Part shown: positions 2,449-56,173 of the stretch, piece after piece
Layout of the letters: every line of letters starts with the position of its first letter
Numbering within the stretch: position 1 is the first letter of the stretch
NCBI RefSeq assembly: GCF_017810075.1
Contig: NZ_JADNYK010000003.1
Location: forward strand, 558,001 to 622,000
DNA from: Pseudozobellia sp. WGM2
Lineage (GTDB): Bacteria; Bacteroidota; Bacteroidia; Flavobacteriales; Flavobacteriaceae
DNA: 64,000 nucleotides
Direction of reading: 5' to 3'
Program-made: the position numbers and the translations under genes
Notes under the pieces: generated by a model
The model's input: the letters and a program-made list of their open reading frames with translations, nothing else
Told to the model about the DNA's origin: nothing
The model's database searches: none

Positions 2449-4734
2449 ATGAAAAAAATTCCCGCCCTAGTATTATTCGGTTTAATGGCTTTGGCCGTTT
2501 ATTGGGTATTTTATAGCGCTACCCCTATTTATACGCCAGATTCAGATGCGGCAAAGAGTCAATTTTCAACCGACAGGGCATTACAACATGTGAAAATAAT
2601 GGCCTCAGAGCCCCATGCGGTAGGTTTTCCGGCACATGCGAAAGTGCGCTCGTACATTCTGGCCCAATTAGAGAAATTAGGCCTGCAGACCGAGATTCAA
2701 GAAGGGTATGCCCTTGGCGGAGGGTCGAACTTGAGCAAGATCAGCAATATTTTGGCCCGCATCGAGGGGTCTAGTTCAGGTAAAGCCCTATTGCTTCTTT
2801 CCCATTATGATAGCAATCCGCATTCTTCATTAGGTGCCAGTGATGCCGCAAGTGGGGTCGCCACCATTTTAGAAGGAGTTCGTGCCTTTTTAGCCGAAGG
2901 AAAAAAACCAAAAAATGACATTATCATCCTCATTTCAGATGCTGAAGAACTTGGTCTCAACGGAGCTGATTTATTCGTGAATAAGCATCGCTGGGCGAAA
3001 GATGTGGGCCTGGTACTGAATTTTGAGGCACGTGGCAGCGGCGGCCCCAGTTATGCTTTCATAGAGACCAATCGAGGCAATCAGAACCTGATACGCGAAT
3101 TCATAAAGGCGAACCCAAAATACCCAATGGCCAATTCGCTGTATTATAGCATCTACAAACTTTTACCGAACGATACAGACCTTACTGTTTTTAGAAAAGA
3201 TAGGGATATCGAGGGATTTAATTTCGCGTTTATCGATGATCATTTCGATTACCATACCGCCCAAGACACCTACGCACGGTTAGACAAAAACACACTGGCG
3301 CACCAAGGCAGTTATTTGATGCCACTGCTCCATCATTTTAGCGCCGCCAATCTGGATAATTTGAAAAGCCTTAATGATTATGTCTATTTCAATATTCCAT
3401 TTTTTGAAATGGTTGCCTACCCTTTCGATTGGATCTGGCCAATGCTCGTTCTAGCATCACTGCTATTTATTGTGATACTAGCTTTTGGTATTAAGAAGAA
3501 AATATTGCATTTGAGAGCATTGCTCATGGGCTTTGTACCAATGCTATTGATCTTGGTCATAAACGCAGTTGCAGGTTATTTTGTTTGGCCACTTTTGAAA
3601 TGGGTTTACCCAGAATACCAAGATATATTACATGGCTTCACCTATAATGGGTATATCTACATTGCAGCTATGTTGATGTTTTCATTAACTACCTGTTTTT
3701 TTGTATATCGCATTTTTAATAAAGCAACAATATCGAATCTCCTGTTCGCGCCACTACTGTTGTGGTTGGTTATCTGCGGTGGTGTAGCTCTCTATTTACC
3801 TGGGGCAAGCTTTTTTATAATGCCTGTTTTTGCTTTACTTGCGATGTGGTATGTAAGTGTAAATCAAAAAGAGCCACATGCATTATTATTACTTTTTCTG
3901 GCTTTGCCTGCACTTTGGCTCTATGCCCCCTTTATCAAAGGGTTCGCTGTAGGCCTTGGGCTCAAAATGCTGGTAGCCTCGGCACTATTGGTTTCATTGA
4001 CCTTCTTCTTAACCTTACCCGTTTTCGCATTGTATAATTTTAAAAAGGGATGGGCTCAAACCAGCTTTATAATTTGCATAGCTATTCTAGTATACGCCCA
4101 TTTTCAATCAGGCTTTAGCAGAGAAAACAAAAGACCCAACAGTCTCGTGTATATTTTGGATGCTGACCAAAATTCGGCACACTGGGCTACTTATGACAAT
4201 GTATTGACCGATTGGAACAAAAACTTTTTTCAAGATTTTGATGAATTGCCCCAAGGCCTATCAACAAAGACAATCAGTAGCAAGTACGGCACTCATTTTA
4301 AAAAAATGTCTACAGCGCCGGTCAAGTCTATTGTTCCTCCAGAAGTAGAAACCCTAACAGATTCCATTATCGGAAAGCATCGGCTCTTGAAAATTCGCAT
4401 ATCTCCTCAACGACCTGTCAACCGGCTTGATTTCTTTACCAACGACACCAAAGTTGTTCAAGCTACCGCCAATGGTTTGCCTTTAGATGAACATTATCTT
4501 AAAAATCGGCAACCTGGTAAATTATTGACTCACTACGTTAGCGATGAAAAATTTACCGAACTAGAGCTGACCGTGCCTAAGGCTTCTATTCTTGAACTTA
4601 CGGTATATGAAGCTTCTAACGATTTAATGAACCATGCTCTTTTTGACATACCCGTGCGACCAGAAAACAATATACCCATGCCTTTTGTACTGAACGATGC
4701 GGTAATGACCGTTAAAAAAACACGATATGAATAA
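2449..4734 (+). CDS. M28-family metallopeptidase with C-terminal polytopic membrane domain
   Basis: 761 residues. An N-terminal signal/anchor helix is followed by an M28 aminopeptidase domain (about 40-310). The di-zinc ligands are visible in LLSHYDSNP, GASDAASG, SDAEELG, NFEARG and DDHFDYHTAQDT. About eight hydrophobic segments span 320-560, then comes a soluble extracytoplasmic domain (about 570-761). This layout resembles the ER metallopeptidase-1 type of M28 peptidase. The active site should face the periplasm and release N-terminal amino acids. It overlaps the next gene by 8 bases, which suggests translational coupling. Confidence 0.88.
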   Translation: MKKIPALVLFGLMALAVYWVFYSATPIYTPDSDAAKSQFSTDRALQHVKIMASEPHAVGFPAHAKVRSYILAQLEKLGLQTEIQEGYALGGGSNLSKISNILARIEGSSSGKALLLLSHYDSNPHSSLGASDAASGVATILEGVRAFLAEGKKPKNDIIILISDAEELGLNGADLFVNKHRWAKDVGLVLNFEARGSGGPSYAFIETNRGNQNLIREFIKANPKYPMANSLYYSIYKLLPNDTDLTVFRKDRDIEGFNFAFIDDHFDYHTAQDTYARLDKNTLAHQGSYLMPLLHHFSAANLDNLKSLNDYVYFNIPFFEMVAYPFDWIWPMLVLASLLFIVILAFGIKKKILHLRALLMGFVPMLLILVINAVAGYFVWPLLKWVYPEYQDILHGFTYNGYIYIAAMLMFSLTTCFFVYRIFNKATISNLLFAPLLLWLVICGGVALYLPGASFFIMPVFALLAMWYVSVNQKEPHALLLLFLALPALWLYAPFIKGFAVGLGLKMLVASALLVSLTFFLTLPVFALYNFKKGWAQTSFIICIAILVYAHFQSGFSRENKRPNSLVYILDADQNSAHWATYDNVLTDWNKNFFQDFDELPQGLSTKTISSKYGTHFKKMSTAPVKSIVPPEVETLTDSIIGKHRLLKIRISPQRPVNRLDFFTNDTKVVQATANGLPLDEHYLKNRQPGKLLTHYVSDEKFTELELTVPKASILELTVYEASNDLMNHALFDIPVRPENNIPMPFVLNDAVMTVKKTRYE

Positions 4735-36582: not shown

Positions 36583-37848
36583 CTATTCTGACAATTGATA
36601 GACAAGATTTTTAGTATTGCTCAACTCCACTTGTTCTACCCTACCCGTACCTTCAAAATGCAGAGAGATGCCTCTAATTTTTGCCGGTGTTTCGAGTACT
36701 TGCATCTGGTAGGCCAAATGGTCATTAACAAAAATCTGCAGTTCACCGTCTTTCGAAAGCAACTGTAATTGTACCGAATCTGAGAAGTCTACTCCAAAAG
36801 CGGAAAGGTCGGTTTTTTTTCCATCAATAAATTGTCCGAAGGCCATAATGTTCAAGGTGGCGACACAACCTTTGTTCGACAGCGGAATACCTATGGCCCC
36901 ACCCTCGTAAATAAGATAAACCTGAGCCCGTCGGCATCCAGTAGCACTTTTTTCAAAAGTATTTTGCAATCGTACGGAGAAAATAAATTCAGAGGTGTCA
37001 ATAGCACCGAAATCTTGCATTTGATACAAGCTTACTGAGGTATTTTCAACCTTTGGGTCGAGTCCGTAATCGGAAAGCACATTAGAGCTTATTGATAGTT
37101 CTCCTTTACGCTCTACATTTTCATTATCTAAATACAACGGTATGGAATCACGCTCGATAAGGCCCAACCAACCTTGGGTCGGTATAAACACATCATGGGC
37201 CTCCACTATGGTGCCATCGACCACCAATTTGGCATTAAAAAAACCCGGACGACGATAAATACAAGTGGCCACACTATCATTGCGATTGATGGTTATTCGT
37301 TTACTGGTATCCCAACTTTGCTGAATTTCGATTTTGGCATCGTCGGCAGCAGCAGAAACATCATAATCGAACACCACTGAATTAGGTAGGCCTTTAGCGA
37401 TGGTTCGGCTTTTGAATTCAAAGTCTGCCTTATGGTAAGTCACCTCTTTGATGATGGGTTGTTTGTCATTATCCCAATTTAATGCAAGTAGGGCTACCCC
37501 AATGGTCAATACCCCGATAATGGCCAGTATTTTCTGCCAAGGAATTTGAATGAAGGCGGGTGTATCTGTATCAGACTTCTGAGAGTTAACAAAATCCCGC
37601 CAGTCGGCATGACCCATAAATTGAGAAAGAATGTTCAAAGTTGCTGCACTGGGGTTGGCAATACGCTCGGCCCGGCCCCAGATACGTTTTAGCGTCGTAA
37701 CGCTCAAACGTTTTTTGGTTGCCTCAAAAATCTGTTCGCTAAGTGTTTCAAAATCACTATTACTCCAATTCTTGCCATTGCCCCAGCCCAACTTTGCTTC
37801 GATGCACGAAACCAAATGTTCGACCATATACAGTTTTGATTTATCCAT
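36583..37848 (-). CDS. Putative transmembrane one-component regulator (HTH-like N-terminus, LamG-like sensor)
   Basis: 421 residues. Residues about 1-90 contain FEATKKRLSVTTLKRIWGR, then PSAATLNILSQFMGHADW, a pattern I know from the start of many Bacteroidota proteins and which resembles a helix-turn-helix. One TM helix follows at about 107-124 (ILAIIGVLTIGVALLAL). The outer part has a PKD-like beta domain (about 135-240) and a LamG/concanavalin-like domain (about 250-415). With no signal peptide, the N-terminus stays in the cytoplasm and the rest outside. It is divergent (139 bases) from a gene for a secreted LamG-like protein, its likely target. Function not previously known to me. Confidence 0.6.
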   Translation of the reverse strand: MDKSKLYMVEHLVSCIEAKLGWGNGKNWSNSDFETLSEQIFEATKKRLSVTTLKRIWGRAERIANPSAATLNILSQFMGHADWRDFVNSQKSDTDTPAFIQIPWQKILAIIGVLTIGVALLALNWDNDKQPIIKEVTYHKADFEFKSRTIAKGLPNSVVFDYDVSAAADDAKIEIQQSWDTSKRITINRNDSVATCIYRRPGFFNAKLVVDGTIVEAHDVFIPTQGWLGLIERDSIPLYLDNENVERKGELSISSNVLSDYGLDPKVENTSVSLYQMQDFGAIDTSEFIFSVRLQNTFEKSATGCRRAQVYLIYEGGAIGIPLSNKGCVATLNIMAFGQFIDGKKTDLSAFGVDFSDSVQLQLLSKDGELQIFVNDHLAYQMQVLETPAKIRGISLHFEGTGRVEQVELSNTKNLVYQLSE

Positions 37849-37939
37849 AAAACTAAAAAGAGCAATAAAGGTGTGGGCGTTTGAATAGCATTAAACAGGA
37901 TTGAACAGCTTGAACAGGCCGAAAAAATACCTTGGAACC

Positions 37940-37947
37940 TACTTTTG
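37940..37947 (+). promoter_or_regulatory. -7 promoter box TACTTTTG
   Basis: A perfect TAnnTTTG 40 bases before the ATG at 37988, with a TTG-containing -33 region. Transcription of the LamG-like gene should start near 37955. Confidence 0.45.
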
Positions 37948-37987
37948 ACTTAATCAAATTTAGACTTTAATCATAAATCGAGCAAAA

Positions 37988-39172
37988 ATGAAAAAAACAC
38001 TAAAAAGACATCTTATATTGGGTTTGACGATAGGCTGTACCTTATTATCGCACGCCCAACATAAAATAAACGCTCAAAAGAAAACAATAGCTTTTCCAAT
38101 GACCGAAAAGCATTGGGCAACGGTCAGCAATAATGTAGAATTTACCTCTTACAAATCGACGAAAGTTGCCAGAAGTAAGAACGAGTCGGATATAGCAATT
38201 ATGCTCAAAGATTTTGTATTTACCACCGGTATCATTGAGTTCGATGTAGAATTGAAAGGGCAGGGTTTTCCGGGAATCAACTTCCGTGTAAGCGAAGATT
38301 CATTAAACTCGGAAATATTCTACTTAAGACATTTTGGCAAACCTAACCCCAAGCGAAGAACCACCATGCAGTATGCTCCGGTAATCAGCGGAGTAAACCT
38401 ATGGGACCTCACCGATGATTATCAAGCTGCGGCAACCCTTTACGAAAATCAATGGAACCATGTAAAACTGGTAGTATCGAAAAAGCAAATGAGGGTTTAT
38501 GTCAATGATATGGAAAAAGCAGCTTTATGGGTTCCGGCATTGGAGGGCATCACCAAATCTGGCCGTATCGGTCTTACGGGCAATGTAATTTATGCCAATA
38601 TGAAAATTACCCCCAATGCTACCGAAGACTTACCGACTACCGCAGGCTACGACCCAACCTACAATGACCCGAATTATCTCCGCAACTGGCAAATAACCGA
38701 ACCGATAGACTTCCCCTTCGGAAAAGACATCTTAAAAGGCATTCAAAGAAACCCCGGAGTAGCTATTGACCCGGCCTACCTTGATAGTACCGCCGTTTGG
38801 AAACCGATAGAAGCCGGCCGTCGTGCCCTCATTAACTTGACTAAAGAATTCGGGGGTGAAAGCGTAAGCCCTAGACGCTTGATTTGGTTAAAGACTACTG
38901 TCACCTCTGATAATATGCAAGAAAAACTGCTTAAACTGGGTTTTAGCGATGAAGTTTGGGTCTTTATCAACAAGCAACCCCTGTACAAAGATGAAAACTA
39001 CTTCGGTTCGCCGGGCATGAAAGAACCCCGCGGCCGAGCTACTTTAGACAACACTTCATTCGAAATACCTTTTCAAGAGGGAGAAAATGAAATTTTAATC
39101 GGCCTCACCAATTATTTTTACGGTTGGGGCCTCATTGCCCGATTAGCAGATACCGATGGTCTTGATTATTAA
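37988..39172 (+). CDS. Secreted LamG-like (DUF1080-type) protein
   Basis: 394 residues. A signal peptide ends LLSHAQ. Residues about 40-215 form a concanavalin-like sandwich of the LamG/3-keto-glucoside-hydrolase (DUF1080) type: TTGIIEFDVELKGQGFPGINF, WNHVKLVVSKKQMRVYVND and SGRIGLTGN. Residues about 235-394 form a second beta domain like the jelly-roll of glycosidases (VWVFINKQPLYKDENYFG, ENEILIGLTNYFYGWGL). No catalytic acid pair is obvious. It is divergent from the putative membrane regulator, whose outer domain has a similar LamG-like pattern, so the two may share a ligand. Confidence 0.72.
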   Translation: MKKTLKRHLILGLTIGCTLLSHAQHKINAQKKTIAFPMTEKHWATVSNNVEFTSYKSTKVARSKNESDIAIMLKDFVFTTGIIEFDVELKGQGFPGINFRVSEDSLNSEIFYLRHFGKPNPKRRTTMQYAPVISGVNLWDLTDDYQAAATLYENQWNHVKLVVSKKQMRVYVNDMEKAALWVPALEGITKSGRIGLTGNVIYANMKITPNATEDLPTTAGYDPTYNDPNYLRNWQITEPIDFPFGKDILKGIQRNPGVAIDPAYLDSTAVWKPIEAGRRALINLTKEFGGESVSPRRLIWLKTTVTSDNMQEKLLKLGFSDEVWVFINKQPLYKDENYFGSPGMKEPRGRATLDNTSFEIPFQEGENEILIGLTNYFYGWGLIARLADTDGLDY

Positions 39173-52054: not shown

Positions 52055-55000
52055 TTATTCTTGTTTAAATTCAGTGGGCAACACCCCAAAATAAGCTTTA
52101 AAACATTTGGTGAAATAAGAAGGTGACGAGAATCCGACTTTGTAACAGACTTCGCTAATAGAAGCATCTCCATTTTCAATAATTTCCTTGGCTTTTTCTA
52201 AACGTAGTTTTCTTAGGAATTCGTTGGCAGTATGGCCGGTCAGCGATTTTATCTTCCGGTAAAGCTGACTTCGGCTCAAGTTCAACTCCCCGGCCAATTG
52301 CTCTACATTCAGGTTTTCATCGGCTATATTTTCAATAATATACTCCATTACCTTAGTGATAAAACCTTTGTCAAGAAGTGATGTATTCTCGGGTATCTTT
52401 ACGTTATTCGTTCCTTCGCCAAATTTATCGAATAATATTTGCCTACTCTTTATAATTTGCCTGAGTTGTGCCCTAAGCACCTTCAAATCAAATGGTTTGC
52501 TCAGGTAGATGTCGGCCCCGGAATCAATGCCCTTTATCCAATCTTCACTCATTGTCTTAGCCGTTAACATCAATAACGGTATATGGCTCGTTCTCAAATC
52601 ATCTTTTATGGCCTTACAGAATTCTAAACCATCCATTTCTGGCATAACAACATCTGTAATAATTAAATCGGGTATACGCTCAAGGGCCAGTTTTAGGCCC
52701 TGTTGCCCATTTACAGCCTCAAACACATTGTATTCGGTCTGAAGCTCATTTTTGAGATATGACCGTAGCTCGGTATTATCTTCGACTATGAGTAAGGTCT
52801 TCTTTGCTCCTGTAAGCATTTCAAGTCGTGCGGTTTCAGGTATGTCTTGATTTGTTGCAGGCACCACCTCTTCATTAATTGTGGCGGCCAATAATAATTC
52901 TTCAGTATTAAAATGTTCTCTGCCCATGGGCAAGAATACCCTGAACTTTGTTCCAACGGCCTCCTCACTTTCGACGACAATATGCCCTTTCAGTAAATCG
53001 ACAAAACTTTTTACCACCTCTAGACCTATACCCGTACCCCCGTAATATTGACTGTTCATGTTTTTGACCTGATAGAATCGTTCAAAAACATTTCTTACCT
53101 CTTCTTGACTTATACCGCTCCCCGTATCTTCAATAAAAATCTCAATTGCTGGTAACTGCTTTTCGGTATCTATGAGGGGAAATATCATATTGGTTTCCCT
53201 TTGGTGTACGCCTATAGTGATGGTGCCATTGTCTGGGGTAATCTTAAATGCATTTGACAGTATGTTGAACAGCACTTTTTCTAACATACCGGGATCGCTC
53301 CAAAGCTTTACGTTTTTACCACTAGACTCAAAAAGCATCGCGATATTCTTCAATTCAGCTTCTTCATTAAAATGTTCCGCGATTTCTTGTGAAAAATCGA
53401 CCACATCGATTTCTGAAACCTTAATCGAAAACTTGTTCAACTGTAGTTTTCTGAAATCCATCAACTCATCGATCAGTCGTTTTAAACGAGCCGTATTTTT
53501 ATGAATGATATTGAGTTTTTCCGACAAACCTTTTGAAAGTCTATATTTTTGATCATGCATAACCGACTCAAGCGGGTTTAGAATCAGCGTTAGAGGCGTT
53601 CGAAATTCGTGAGAGATATTGGTAAAGAACTGAATCTTACGATTGTTCAATTCTTCTTCTTGCAAACGTCTGGCGCGTTCGACCTGTACCAAACGTTTTT
53701 CTCGAATTCTTTCTTTGGTCAGTCTAAATGCAAACACAGAAATCATTACGAACAATATGAGATAACAAGCAATGGCCAAAGTAGTTCTATACCATGGTGG
53801 CAATACGGTCAACCGCAGCGTTTTTGCACTCTCGTTCCAAACCCCATCATTGTTGGCCGCTTTGACCATAAAAGTATAATCGCCCGGTGATAAATTAGTA
53901 TAGGTGGCACTCGTGGTATTACTCACAAAATTCCAAGTATCTTCTAGGCCATCAAGGTAATAGGCATATTTATTCTTCTCAGGTCGGGTATAATTAAGGG
54001 CCGCAAATTCAATTGTAAAAAAAGACTGATTGTGGTTCAATGTCAAATGCTCTGTTTCTCCAATAGCTTTTTTCAATGGTGAGCTTGATGATTTATTATG
54101 TATTTTGAAGTTCGTAAAGTAGACTTCTGGTTTTCTTTCATTAAATGTAATAGCTTCTGGGTTTACTACATTTACCCCCTTATAGTTACCAAAATACATG
54201 GTGCCGTCTTCATCTTTAAAGCCAGCATTATAATTGAAATCATCTGACAACAAACCATCATTGGCGCTATAGTTGGTAAACTGTTTTTCTTCAATTTCAA
54301 AGTATGAAAGCCCTTTATTGCCTCCAAGCCATAGATTACCATCATCACCTTCTAAAATCGTAGCAATACTTTCTTGCTCCAAATTGGTCGAGGCACTGTT
54401 GAACCAAGTGATATTTTTTCCATTTACATCATATTTCCATAGCCCTGCACCATCGGTACCGATCCATATATTCCCAAACTTATCTTCGAAAAGTGTGACC
54501 GTTAAATCTATTAATACCTTTTCGGCCGGATTTTGCTCTTCGGACGGCATCAACTCTAGATTCTCGAATGCCCCTTTATATCCATTTTTCCTTTTAAACA
54601 CCCCACGGTTAGTAGCTACCCAAACTGTGTTGTTTCTGTCTACAAGAACTTTTCTTATTTCAGCACCTTGTCTAAAAAGACTATCTGCGACAAAATCGAA
54701 CTTTTTAGTTTTTGAATCATAATAATGTAATCCACTAGAGCTCGTGCCGATCCAAACTACACCATCGATATCTTCGGCAAAATTCATAATACGATGAAAC
54801 CGCAAGCGCCCGTTCACCTCTTGAATTTCATAATGCTTGAATTGATCACTTCCCCTGGGCAGATAATATATACCGGAGTTCCAAGTGGCCACCCACAGAT
54901 TGCTTCCACTATCGAAAAACAGATTCTGTACATCTAACGCCTCGAAGCCTTTTGCAATGGGGTTATCTTGATCGATAAGATGATCAAAGGTTTTTTTCTC

Positions 55001-56173
55001 TAGATCATAGACGTCAATTCCGCCCCCATCCATACCTATCCACAGCCTATTTTTTTTGTCTTTAACGATACTGGTTACCGATGATGATTGTAACGAGTTA
55101 CGTATGTTAGAAACACTTTCTAAATCTTTGAATTTATCATATAAAATGTCTGAAACCCCAACCCCGGCATTATAGTAACCGACCCAGACCCTTTTTTGGT
55201 CATCTACGAAAAGTGTCCAAATCGAATTGGATTTTAATCCGTTGTCCGCAAATTTATCGTAGTGATAGTGTTTAATTACCGAACCATCTTTTTCCACCAC
55301 TAGTAAACCGTCATTCTCGGTACCACATAAAATTTTACCATCCGGCCCCTGAACCATGGTCAAAATCTGCTCGTCAGTGATGGGGAATCTTTCAGCTTGA
55401 TACGTGTTTATAGAAGCGGAACTGACTTTGAGCAACCCGCTTGAGTAAGTACCCATCCAAATAGAACCCGAATCATCAATTATAATCGATTCAACACCAT
55501 AAGAAGCTCTATTTGCAAACTGCGCCCCTTTTAATGTAACGGGTTTTACCTTATTGCCATCATATTCATAAAGACCTTGATTAGTGCCAATAACTATTTT
55601 TCCATCGGGTCTTTTTTTAAGGCATCGTACTTGAAAAGTTTCAGGTGCAGATGCAACTATTTCGACGGGCCTTGCAATCAATTCTTGAGGGTCAACCTCG
55701 AACAAGCCATCTAAGTAGGTACCGATTAAAATTGTTCCCGAATCGGTTTCCTCAAGAGCGAGAACAATCAATTGGTCCAGAATTACATCACTTTCGTTGC
55801 GAAATACAATGTGATCAAAATTATCATAGTCGTTGTTATAGATATTCAGTCCTACTTCCGTACCCACCCATAAACGATTCTTGCTATCTATTAGACTGGT
55901 CTGCACCAATGAACTGTTCAACGACTTCGGATCATTGAATTTTTGACGATACGAAATAATATCAGAACCATAGTATTTATAGAGTCCACCACCGTAAGCT
56001 GCAATCCAAATAAGTCCGTTCTGATCCTGAACAATATTTGAAATAGCCTTTTGGGTTATACCCTGCTTCATATCAACAAAAGACAATTCGCTATCGACTA
56101 CTTGCGCATTCGTGAATTGAGAGATACTGAAGCAAAAAAGCCAAAGAAGTTTATACCAATTTGGTGAATTCAT
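52055..56173 (-). CDS. Hybrid two-component sensor-regulator (HTCS)
   Basis: 1372 residues. A signal peptide ends FTNAQ. Reg_prop repeats form two seven-bladed propellers over about 25-720 (repeated GLIWIAAYGGGLY, IWIGTDGAGLW types), followed by a Y_Y_Y domain (about 725-790), a TM helix (about 795-815) and HisKA with the phospho-His in NISHEFRTPL (near 854). HATPase spans about 930-1090 (GTGIGLEVVKSF), a receiver has the Asp in LIITDVVMPEMDG (near 1174), and an AraC HTH occupies about 1270-1372. It senses an oligosaccharide in the periplasm and activates the xylan genes. Divergent from GH67; one TM helix connects both halves. Confidence 0.95.
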   Translation of the reverse strand: MNSPNWYKLLWLFCFSISQFTNAQVVDSELSFVDMKQGITQKAISNIVQDQNGLIWIAAYGGGLYKYYGSDIISYRQKFNDPKSLNSSLVQTSLIDSKNRLWVGTEVGLNIYNNDYDNFDHIVFRNESDVILDQLIVLALEETDSGTILIGTYLDGLFEVDPQELIARPVEIVASAPETFQVRCLKKRPDGKIVIGTNQGLYEYDGNKVKPVTLKGAQFANRASYGVESIIIDDSGSIWMGTYSSGLLKVSSASINTYQAERFPITDEQILTMVQGPDGKILCGTENDGLLVVEKDGSVIKHYHYDKFADNGLKSNSIWTLFVDDQKRVWVGYYNAGVGVSDILYDKFKDLESVSNIRNSLQSSSVTSIVKDKKNRLWIGMDGGGIDVYDLEKKTFDHLIDQDNPIAKGFEALDVQNLFFDSGSNLWVATWNSGIYYLPRGSDQFKHYEIQEVNGRLRFHRIMNFAEDIDGVVWIGTSSSGLHYYDSKTKKFDFVADSLFRQGAEIRKVLVDRNNTVWVATNRGVFKRKNGYKGAFENLELMPSEEQNPAEKVLIDLTVTLFEDKFGNIWIGTDGAGLWKYDVNGKNITWFNSASTNLEQESIATILEGDDGNLWLGGNKGLSYFEIEEKQFTNYSANDGLLSDDFNYNAGFKDEDGTMYFGNYKGVNVVNPEAITFNERKPEVYFTNFKIHNKSSSSPLKKAIGETEHLTLNHNQSFFTIEFAALNYTRPEKNKYAYYLDGLEDTWNFVSNTTSATYTNLSPGDYTFMVKAANNDGVWNESAKTLRLTVLPPWYRTTLAIACYLILFVMISVFAFRLTKERIREKRLVQVERARRLQEEELNNRKIQFFTNISHEFRTPLTLILNPLESVMHDQKYRLSKGLSEKLNIIHKNTARLKRLIDELMDFRKLQLNKFSIKVSEIDVVDFSQEIAEHFNEEAELKNIAMLFESSGKNVKLWSDPGMLEKVLFNILSNAFKITPDNGTITIGVHQRETNMIFPLIDTEKQLPAIEIFIEDTGSGISQEEVRNVFERFYQVKNMNSQYYGGTGIGLEVVKSFVDLLKGHIVVESEEAVGTKFRVFLPMGREHFNTEELLLAATINEEVVPATNQDIPETARLEMLTGAKKTLLIVEDNTELRSYLKNELQTEYNVFEAVNGQQGLKLALERIPDLIITDVVMPEMDGLEFCKAIKDDLRTSHIPLLMLTAKTMSEDWIKGIDSGADIYLSKPFDLKVLRAQLRQIIKSRQILFDKFGEGTNNVKIPENTSLLDKGFITKVMEYIIENIADENLNVEQLAGELNLSRSQLYRKIKSLTGHTANEFLRKLRLEKAKEIIENGDASISEVCYKVGFSSPSYFTKCFKAYFGVLPTEFKQE

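Follow-up and report, generated by a model that had tools for sequence, protein, structure and literature searches.

How might a bacterium couple a signal outside its cytoplasmic membrane to a single gene within, using one protein? The question is raised by two divergent genes of Pseudozobellia sp. WGM2 (GCF_017810075.1, contig NZ_JADNYK010000003.1), which lie in a stretch of 64,000 nucleotides (positions 558,001-622,000, forward strand) that was analysed whole and is called the window here. An earlier note on this DNA had placed there two open reading frames separated by 139 bp and had read the leftward one as a membrane-spanning regulator and the rightward one as a secreted protein. Both frames lie where it had put them, and their products are referred to below as the regulator and the partner:

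36583-37848, minus strand: regulator gene, 421 aa, with a predicted cytoplasmic HTH domain (1-92), a TM helix (107-125), an Ig/PKD-like beta domain (about 144-232) and a galectin/ConA-like sensor (about 249-413) with conserved C305/C328
37573-37848, minus strand: codons of the N-terminal DNA-binding-type domain of the regulator (AF2 pLDDT 89.6; Cro/C1-type neighbours; profile alignment in XRE register)
37988-39172, plus strand: divergent partner gene, 394 aa, secreted, with a ConA-like (PF06439/CBM66-like) domain and a conserved C-terminal domain

Genomic setting and architecture of the two proteins

Reading of the window identified a xylan-type PUL adjoining the pair (40212-62272), which includes a SusC/SusD-like pair, GH43-, GH10-, GH67- and GH51-like enzymes, a symporter and a hybrid two-component regulator (52055-56173). 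The gene pair was judged not to belong to this PUL, given that its relatives elsewhere sit beside unrelated genes. In a sister species of the same genus (L025:5665-6929) a single-base deletion splits the regulator near residue 268, leaving two ORFs, and the partner gene is intact.

The regulator has no N-terminal signal peptide and a single TM helix at residues 107-125 (KD 2.36), confirming what had been proposed for residues 107-124. Across 16 relatives the cytoplasmic flank of this helix is usually the more K/R-rich, as the positive-inside pattern would have it. Together, helix and charge pattern support the proposed inside-TM-outside topology, with the N-terminus inside rather than outside. 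Beyond the membrane, the model contains beta domains at 144-232 and 249-413. Its residues from about 223 to 413 resemble ERGIC-53 (Z 11.7), galectins (about 11) and CBM66 (10.8), so that the outer domain is predicted to adopt the ConA-like jelly-roll fold of galectin/ConA-like lectins. Of the outer region described as PKD-like plus LamG-like in the earlier note, the second part is predicted to have this fold; the first was not confirmed as PKD-like by any domain-library match and appears in the model only as a beta-sandwich. Two cysteines, C305 and C328, are invariant and flank a predicted hairpin (strands 307-314 and 317-325); they probably form a disulfide, as expected of an exported domain. 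Judging from the modelled fold, the ligand of the outer domain would most likely be a glycan or glycoconjugate.

A signal peptide is indeed present in the partner, in keeping with its proposed secretion, along with a sub-threshold match to PF06439 (3-keto-disaccharide hydrolase)/LamG. When the partner domain was compared across 12 members, 11 matched PF06439, and CBM66 was matched weakly. The LamG-like domains of the two proteins had been called similar. This likeness holds at the level of fold at most, as the ConA-like domains of regulator and partner are only distantly alike by hhalign (probability 9.6%, E 0.0034).

A predicted Cro/C1-like domain at the N-terminus

Sequence searches of Pfam, NCBIfam and the PDB with the regulator gave no usable match, and neither Pfam nor NCBIfam gave an HTH match. 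The regulator matched no Cro/C1 family model above its cut-off, and one relative matched HTH_26 at E 0.019. The N-terminal block is nevertheless the best-conserved region of the protein: 17 relatives (window protein counted) align over their full length, at 22-53% identity to the window protein, and S49, T52, K54, R55, P66, T70 and L74 are invariant in these 17 sequences.

Because the Foldseek list for the full model was filled by ConA-like folds, the N-terminal domain was folded and searched separately. AlphaFold2 predicted residues 1-92 alone as five helices (3-20, 30-44, 50-56, 68-77 and 83-91; pLDDT 89.6), of which residues 50-56 (VTTLKRI) form the predicted recognition helix. With this domain Foldseek returned no significant HTH match, the best being an HTH antitoxin at E 0.70, followed by the DdrO HTH and, lower, lambda repressor. 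Nearly all neighbours ranked by a second structural aligner were Cro/C1 (lambda-repressor-like) and POU-type DNA-binding domains, including POU2F3 (Z 6.1), the XRE protein 3f6w (6.0), C.Esp1396I (6.0), DdrO (5.6) and lambda repressor (4.9); for a helical domain, Z values near 6 are modest. The model is therefore best described as a predicted lambda-repressor-like five-helix fold of Cro/C1 (XRE) type, at Z of about 5-6 and with a Foldseek E that is not significant. Profiles of the regulator and of four ordinary XRE proteins encoded in neighbouring loci were also compared by hhalign (E 0.016); LSVTTLKRIWGR...PSAATLNILSQFMG of the regulator fell, in the expected register, on the recognition helix and helix 4 of the XRE proteins. 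Taken together, predicted fold and sequence support a DNA-binding-type HTH with moderate strength. To that extent the helix-turn-helix suspected in the earlier note is borne out, and the structure prediction that it had suggested yielded a DNA-binding-type fold rather than one lacking DNA-binding features.

Direct repeats upstream of the regulator

The 139-bp intergenic DNA gave the main new result, which goes beyond what the earlier note had described. Two elements were located there:

37881-37915, minus strand: operator-like array, its four direct repeats pointing towards the regulator (GTTCAA 37915-37910, GTTCAA 37906-37901, GTTTAA 37896-37891, ATTCAA 37886-37881; pitch 9, 10, 10)
37940-37947, plus strand: -7-like element TACTTTTG of the partner gene, 24 bp from the array, with the same geometry in the orthologue clade

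Alignment of orthologous intergenic regions brought out the block TGTTCAA-TGTTCAA-TGTTTAA-TATTCAA, which reads towards the regulator, and the window array was not equalled by shuffles (p 0/400). A weight matrix was then built from a first set of loci and scored on held-out loci, which counted as positive when a three-unit array reached p<0.05 against dinucleotide shuffles. By this measure the array was found upstream of 26 of 30 held-out full-length regulators on the strand pointing to the regulator, as compared to 3 of 30 on the opposite strand. Many of these upstream regions are related by descent, so that a pooled p-value is overconfident; when those with detectable similarity to the matrix set were dropped, the array was present in 11 of 15. 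An array towards the regulator was not found in the held-out loci L118, L120 and L122, and in L113 a strong array (score 20.3) lies upstream of the regulator on the opposite strand, an inverted arrangement. Adjacent units are spaced by 10 bp in 20 pairs, by 9 bp in two and by 14 bp once, with none at other spacings up to 16 bp and a second peak at 20 bp. A lag test blind to the motif supported the period in many, not all, loci.

Within 296 upstream regions of context loci, scores of at least 14 were almost confined to the regulator and its divergent neighbour; L075, L081 and L031 depart from this. In the last of these a strong GTTCAA array (about 4573-4732; score 21.8) precedes not the regulator itself but a gene of 158 aa that lies just downstream of it, and this gene is possibly a separate target. 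The strict array, with no mismatch, occurs once in the 4.7-Mb genome, and the likely regulon is therefore the regulator/partner pair itself; at one mismatch, counts were near those of a reversed-pattern control. Moreover, loci with a divergent gene of no relation to the partner (L022, L023, L070 and L078) keep the array, which ties it to the regulator, and the array accompanies this family in at least two classes.

When the N-terminal columns were ranked by their association with repeat base 3 across non-redundant loci, residue 51 came out on top. It is the second residue of the predicted recognition helix; N or H at this position accompanies base A in 5 of 5 loci, and T or S accompanies base T in 29 of 31. 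The position corresponds to the base-contacting Gln29 of 434 repressor. All rows with N51 belong to a single clade, which means that a single event accounts for most of the covariation; in addition, the residue was spotted by eye before the columns were ranked and the label of L022 was assigned by hand. The covariation is thus only suggestive of a residue 51 that might read repeat base 3.

Distribution and relatives

At E 1e-10, 47 of 397 genomes from the same family and 42 of 395 from the class contain relatives of the regulator, the latter number also counting relatives matched in the N-terminal block only. Some genomes encode several paralogues, and full-length relatives were also found outside the class. 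A divergently transcribed homologue of the partner adjoins the regulator in 22 of 30 first-set loci and 22 of 30 held-out loci, or about three quarters, in counts that include near relatives, a weak partner in the first set (L027) and a partner further along the divergent operon (L068). The remaining loci, about a quarter, have other divergent genes or none beside the regulator.

A survey for the N-terminal block on other domains, as the earlier note had advised, found it in two further settings: in fusions with P-loop STAND/NACHT-like ATPases that are about 820-880 aa long and have no TM helix (L048-L054), and in a short form of about 300-390 aa that comprises the block, a TM helix and a small outer domain (L055-L067). 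The GTTCAA array was not found upstream of the short-TM relatives tested (L055-L064), of the STAND relatives or of L036/L037. For one distant clade (L076-L080) the units are 11 bp long around CCGTTCATTTA. In four of its loci (L076, L077, L079 and L080) a sugar isomerase-like gene lies near the pair, some also have GMC-type oxidoreductases, and these neighbourhoods, as read from sequence, are reminiscent of 3-keto-glycoside pathways. More distant relatives of the N-terminal block (L125, L127, L132, L139 and L141) are preceded by GTTCA-type repeats, mostly at a 9-bp pitch, which suggests that repeat pitch varies with the protein.

Proposed mechanism and alternatives

With architecture, predicted fold, array, conserved linkage and rarity of the site in the genome all computed, we infer DNA binding itself, the sign of regulation, the ligand and oligomerisation. 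In our judgement the regulator is very probably a membrane-anchored one-component switch that controls the divergent secreted-protein gene through the GTTCAA array. As a single-pass membrane transcription regulator it would keep its Cro/C1-like N-terminal domain in the cytoplasm, where several such domains would bind the GTTCAA repeats in a head-to-tail row along a single face of the DNA, with units one helical turn apart. From the array it would control the divergent lectin-like gene, and probably its own gene as well. On the other side of the membrane the galectin/ConA-like domain, stabilised by its probable disulfide, would sense a periplasmic ligand, and the signal may cross the TM helix by a change of oligomer state.

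The sign of regulation can be approached from promoter geometry. Bacteroidota promoters have the -7 consensus TAnnTTTG, and in the window's clade a -7-like TAnnTTT(G/A) is found at a fixed 24 bp from the partner side of the array, or at 34 bp where the outermost unit has decayed. Activation of the partner gene is the more likely sign, as the array stands just upstream of the -33 region of the partner promoter. The regulator might instead act mainly as an autorepressor or repressor, its array overlapping its own promoter and the ligand relieving repression of both genes. Such a role would suit the position of the array end 30-42 bp before the regulator ATG in most loci (three units counted), as well as the persistence of the array where the divergent gene differs. 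We consider it rather unlikely, because the spacing to the -7-like element is fixed and the partner promoter has no evident -33 element, which fits an activator.

The outer domain could also serve as a sensor of the system's own product, binding the secreted partner or competing for its ligand, so that the level of the partner is fed back rather than a nutrient sensed. The linkage in about three quarters of loci and the ConA-like folds of both proteins are in line with this, and the apparently single site in the 4.7-Mb genome makes the circuit look private to the pair; however, the two ConA domains are barely alike and the partner is missing from about a quarter of loci, so we regard such feedback as unlikely. 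Less probable still, another cytoplasmic regulator may bind the array, the N-terminal domain being a protein-protein module (for example anti-sigma-like, FecR style). That Pfam has no name for the domain and that Foldseek was not significant would allow for this, but the array follows the family across classes and differing divergent genes, residue 51 covaries with the repeat, and the fold neighbours are almost all DNA-binding. A surface or periplasmic adhesin or lectin with an N-terminal TM anchor and no regulatory role, as the lectin-like outer fold alone might suggest, is highly improbable in view of a conserved and confidently folded cytoplasmic domain of 100 residues and a conserved operator-like array.

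A broader reading builds on the membrane-anchored switch, and we offer it tentatively. Residues 1-92 would represent an unnamed Bacteroidota DNA-binding family that has been joined to more than one kind of sensor, namely ConA-like TM receptors, short TM receptors and STAND/NACHT ATPases. In the membrane form, three to four receptors would sit head to tail along one face of the array, so that promoter occupancy directly reflects their clustering in the membrane; the circuit would be private to the receptor and a single secreted lectin-like partner, which may itself take part in the sensing loop.

Comparison with known regulators

Judged by predicted fold and operator, the regulator combines a DNA-binding-type domain and a TM helix in one chain without a kinase, as transmembrane transcription regulators (TTRs) do, and it shares with TTRs of the ToxR/TcpP/CadC type a cytoplasmic DNA-binding domain, one TM helix and an outer sensor. 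The tox-box of ToxR, TNAAA-N5-TNAAA, is a direct repeat with a 10-bp pitch (PMC8517210), and direct repeats at a pitch of about one turn are found here too, with GTTCAA in place of TNAAA. However, ToxR and CadC have an OmpR/PhoB winged helix, whereas the regulator has a Cro/C1-like five-helix domain, an array of three to four units and a ConA-like outer sensor. Membership in the ToxR/CadC family was accordingly rejected: the regulator has no Trans_reg_C or OmpR/PhoB match, and its all-helical model has no wing. Hence the label ToxR/CadC-style, used in the earlier note, is apt for the way of working, from inside-TM-outside order to operator-like intergenic array, but not for descent, the domain being Cro/C1-like.

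A further comparison is with Cro/C1 (XRE) repressors, with which the regulator shares the predicted five-helix fold and the S-x-x-T-L-x-R register of the recognition helix; it differs from them in a longer helix 2/turn, in lacking a Pfam match and in its membrane anchor. Cro/C1 proteins usually bind palindromes and not direct repeats like those of the array, which counts against the proposed mechanism. Hybrid two-component systems (HTCS) are membrane glycan sensors with a DNA-binding domain of their own, and one is encoded in the neighbouring PUL (the hybrid regulator at 52055-56173), but the regulator has no kinase, receiver or AraC domain. SusR, taken here by its description, and the SusR-like regulators of Bacteroides are membrane proteins of Bacteroidota as well. 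SusR binds periplasmic maltose and activates the sus genes, and it has a cytoplasmic DNA-binding domain and predicted direct-repeat sites (PMC3878776). Its domain order of periplasmic N-terminal sensor and C-terminal DNA-binding domain is reversed in the regulator, and its sites are 67 or 77 bp apart, in contrast to repeats 9-11 bp apart.

The design had been thought undescribed, which does not hold. TTRs occur across bacteria and archaea and are enriched in Bacteroidota, according to a survey by Pfam DNA-binding models (Demey et al. 2023, PMC10269533), and SusR senses maltose from the membrane (PMC3878776). Therefore, both the TTR class and direct membrane sensing of glycans in Bacteroidota are known already. 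In the literature searched, which covered few subscription papers, we found no prior description of the regulator family, and the family appears undescribed; what appears to be new is the family of its DNA-binding domain, a ConA-like domain as outer sensor, an operator of three to four units and a private pairing with a ConA-like protein that is secreted. As its domain has no Pfam match, it would have been missed by the Pfam-model survey of TTRs (PMC10269533), and it thus adds to a phylum enriched for such regulators a DNA-binding domain that surveys of this kind would miss. TTRs pose the question of how a transcription factor fixed in the membrane locates its promoter and turns it on, and for this question the present system is a compact case: a single receptor acts through a short operator, the units of which are defined to the base, on one target gene beside it, and there are dozens of natural variants and a candidate specificity residue.
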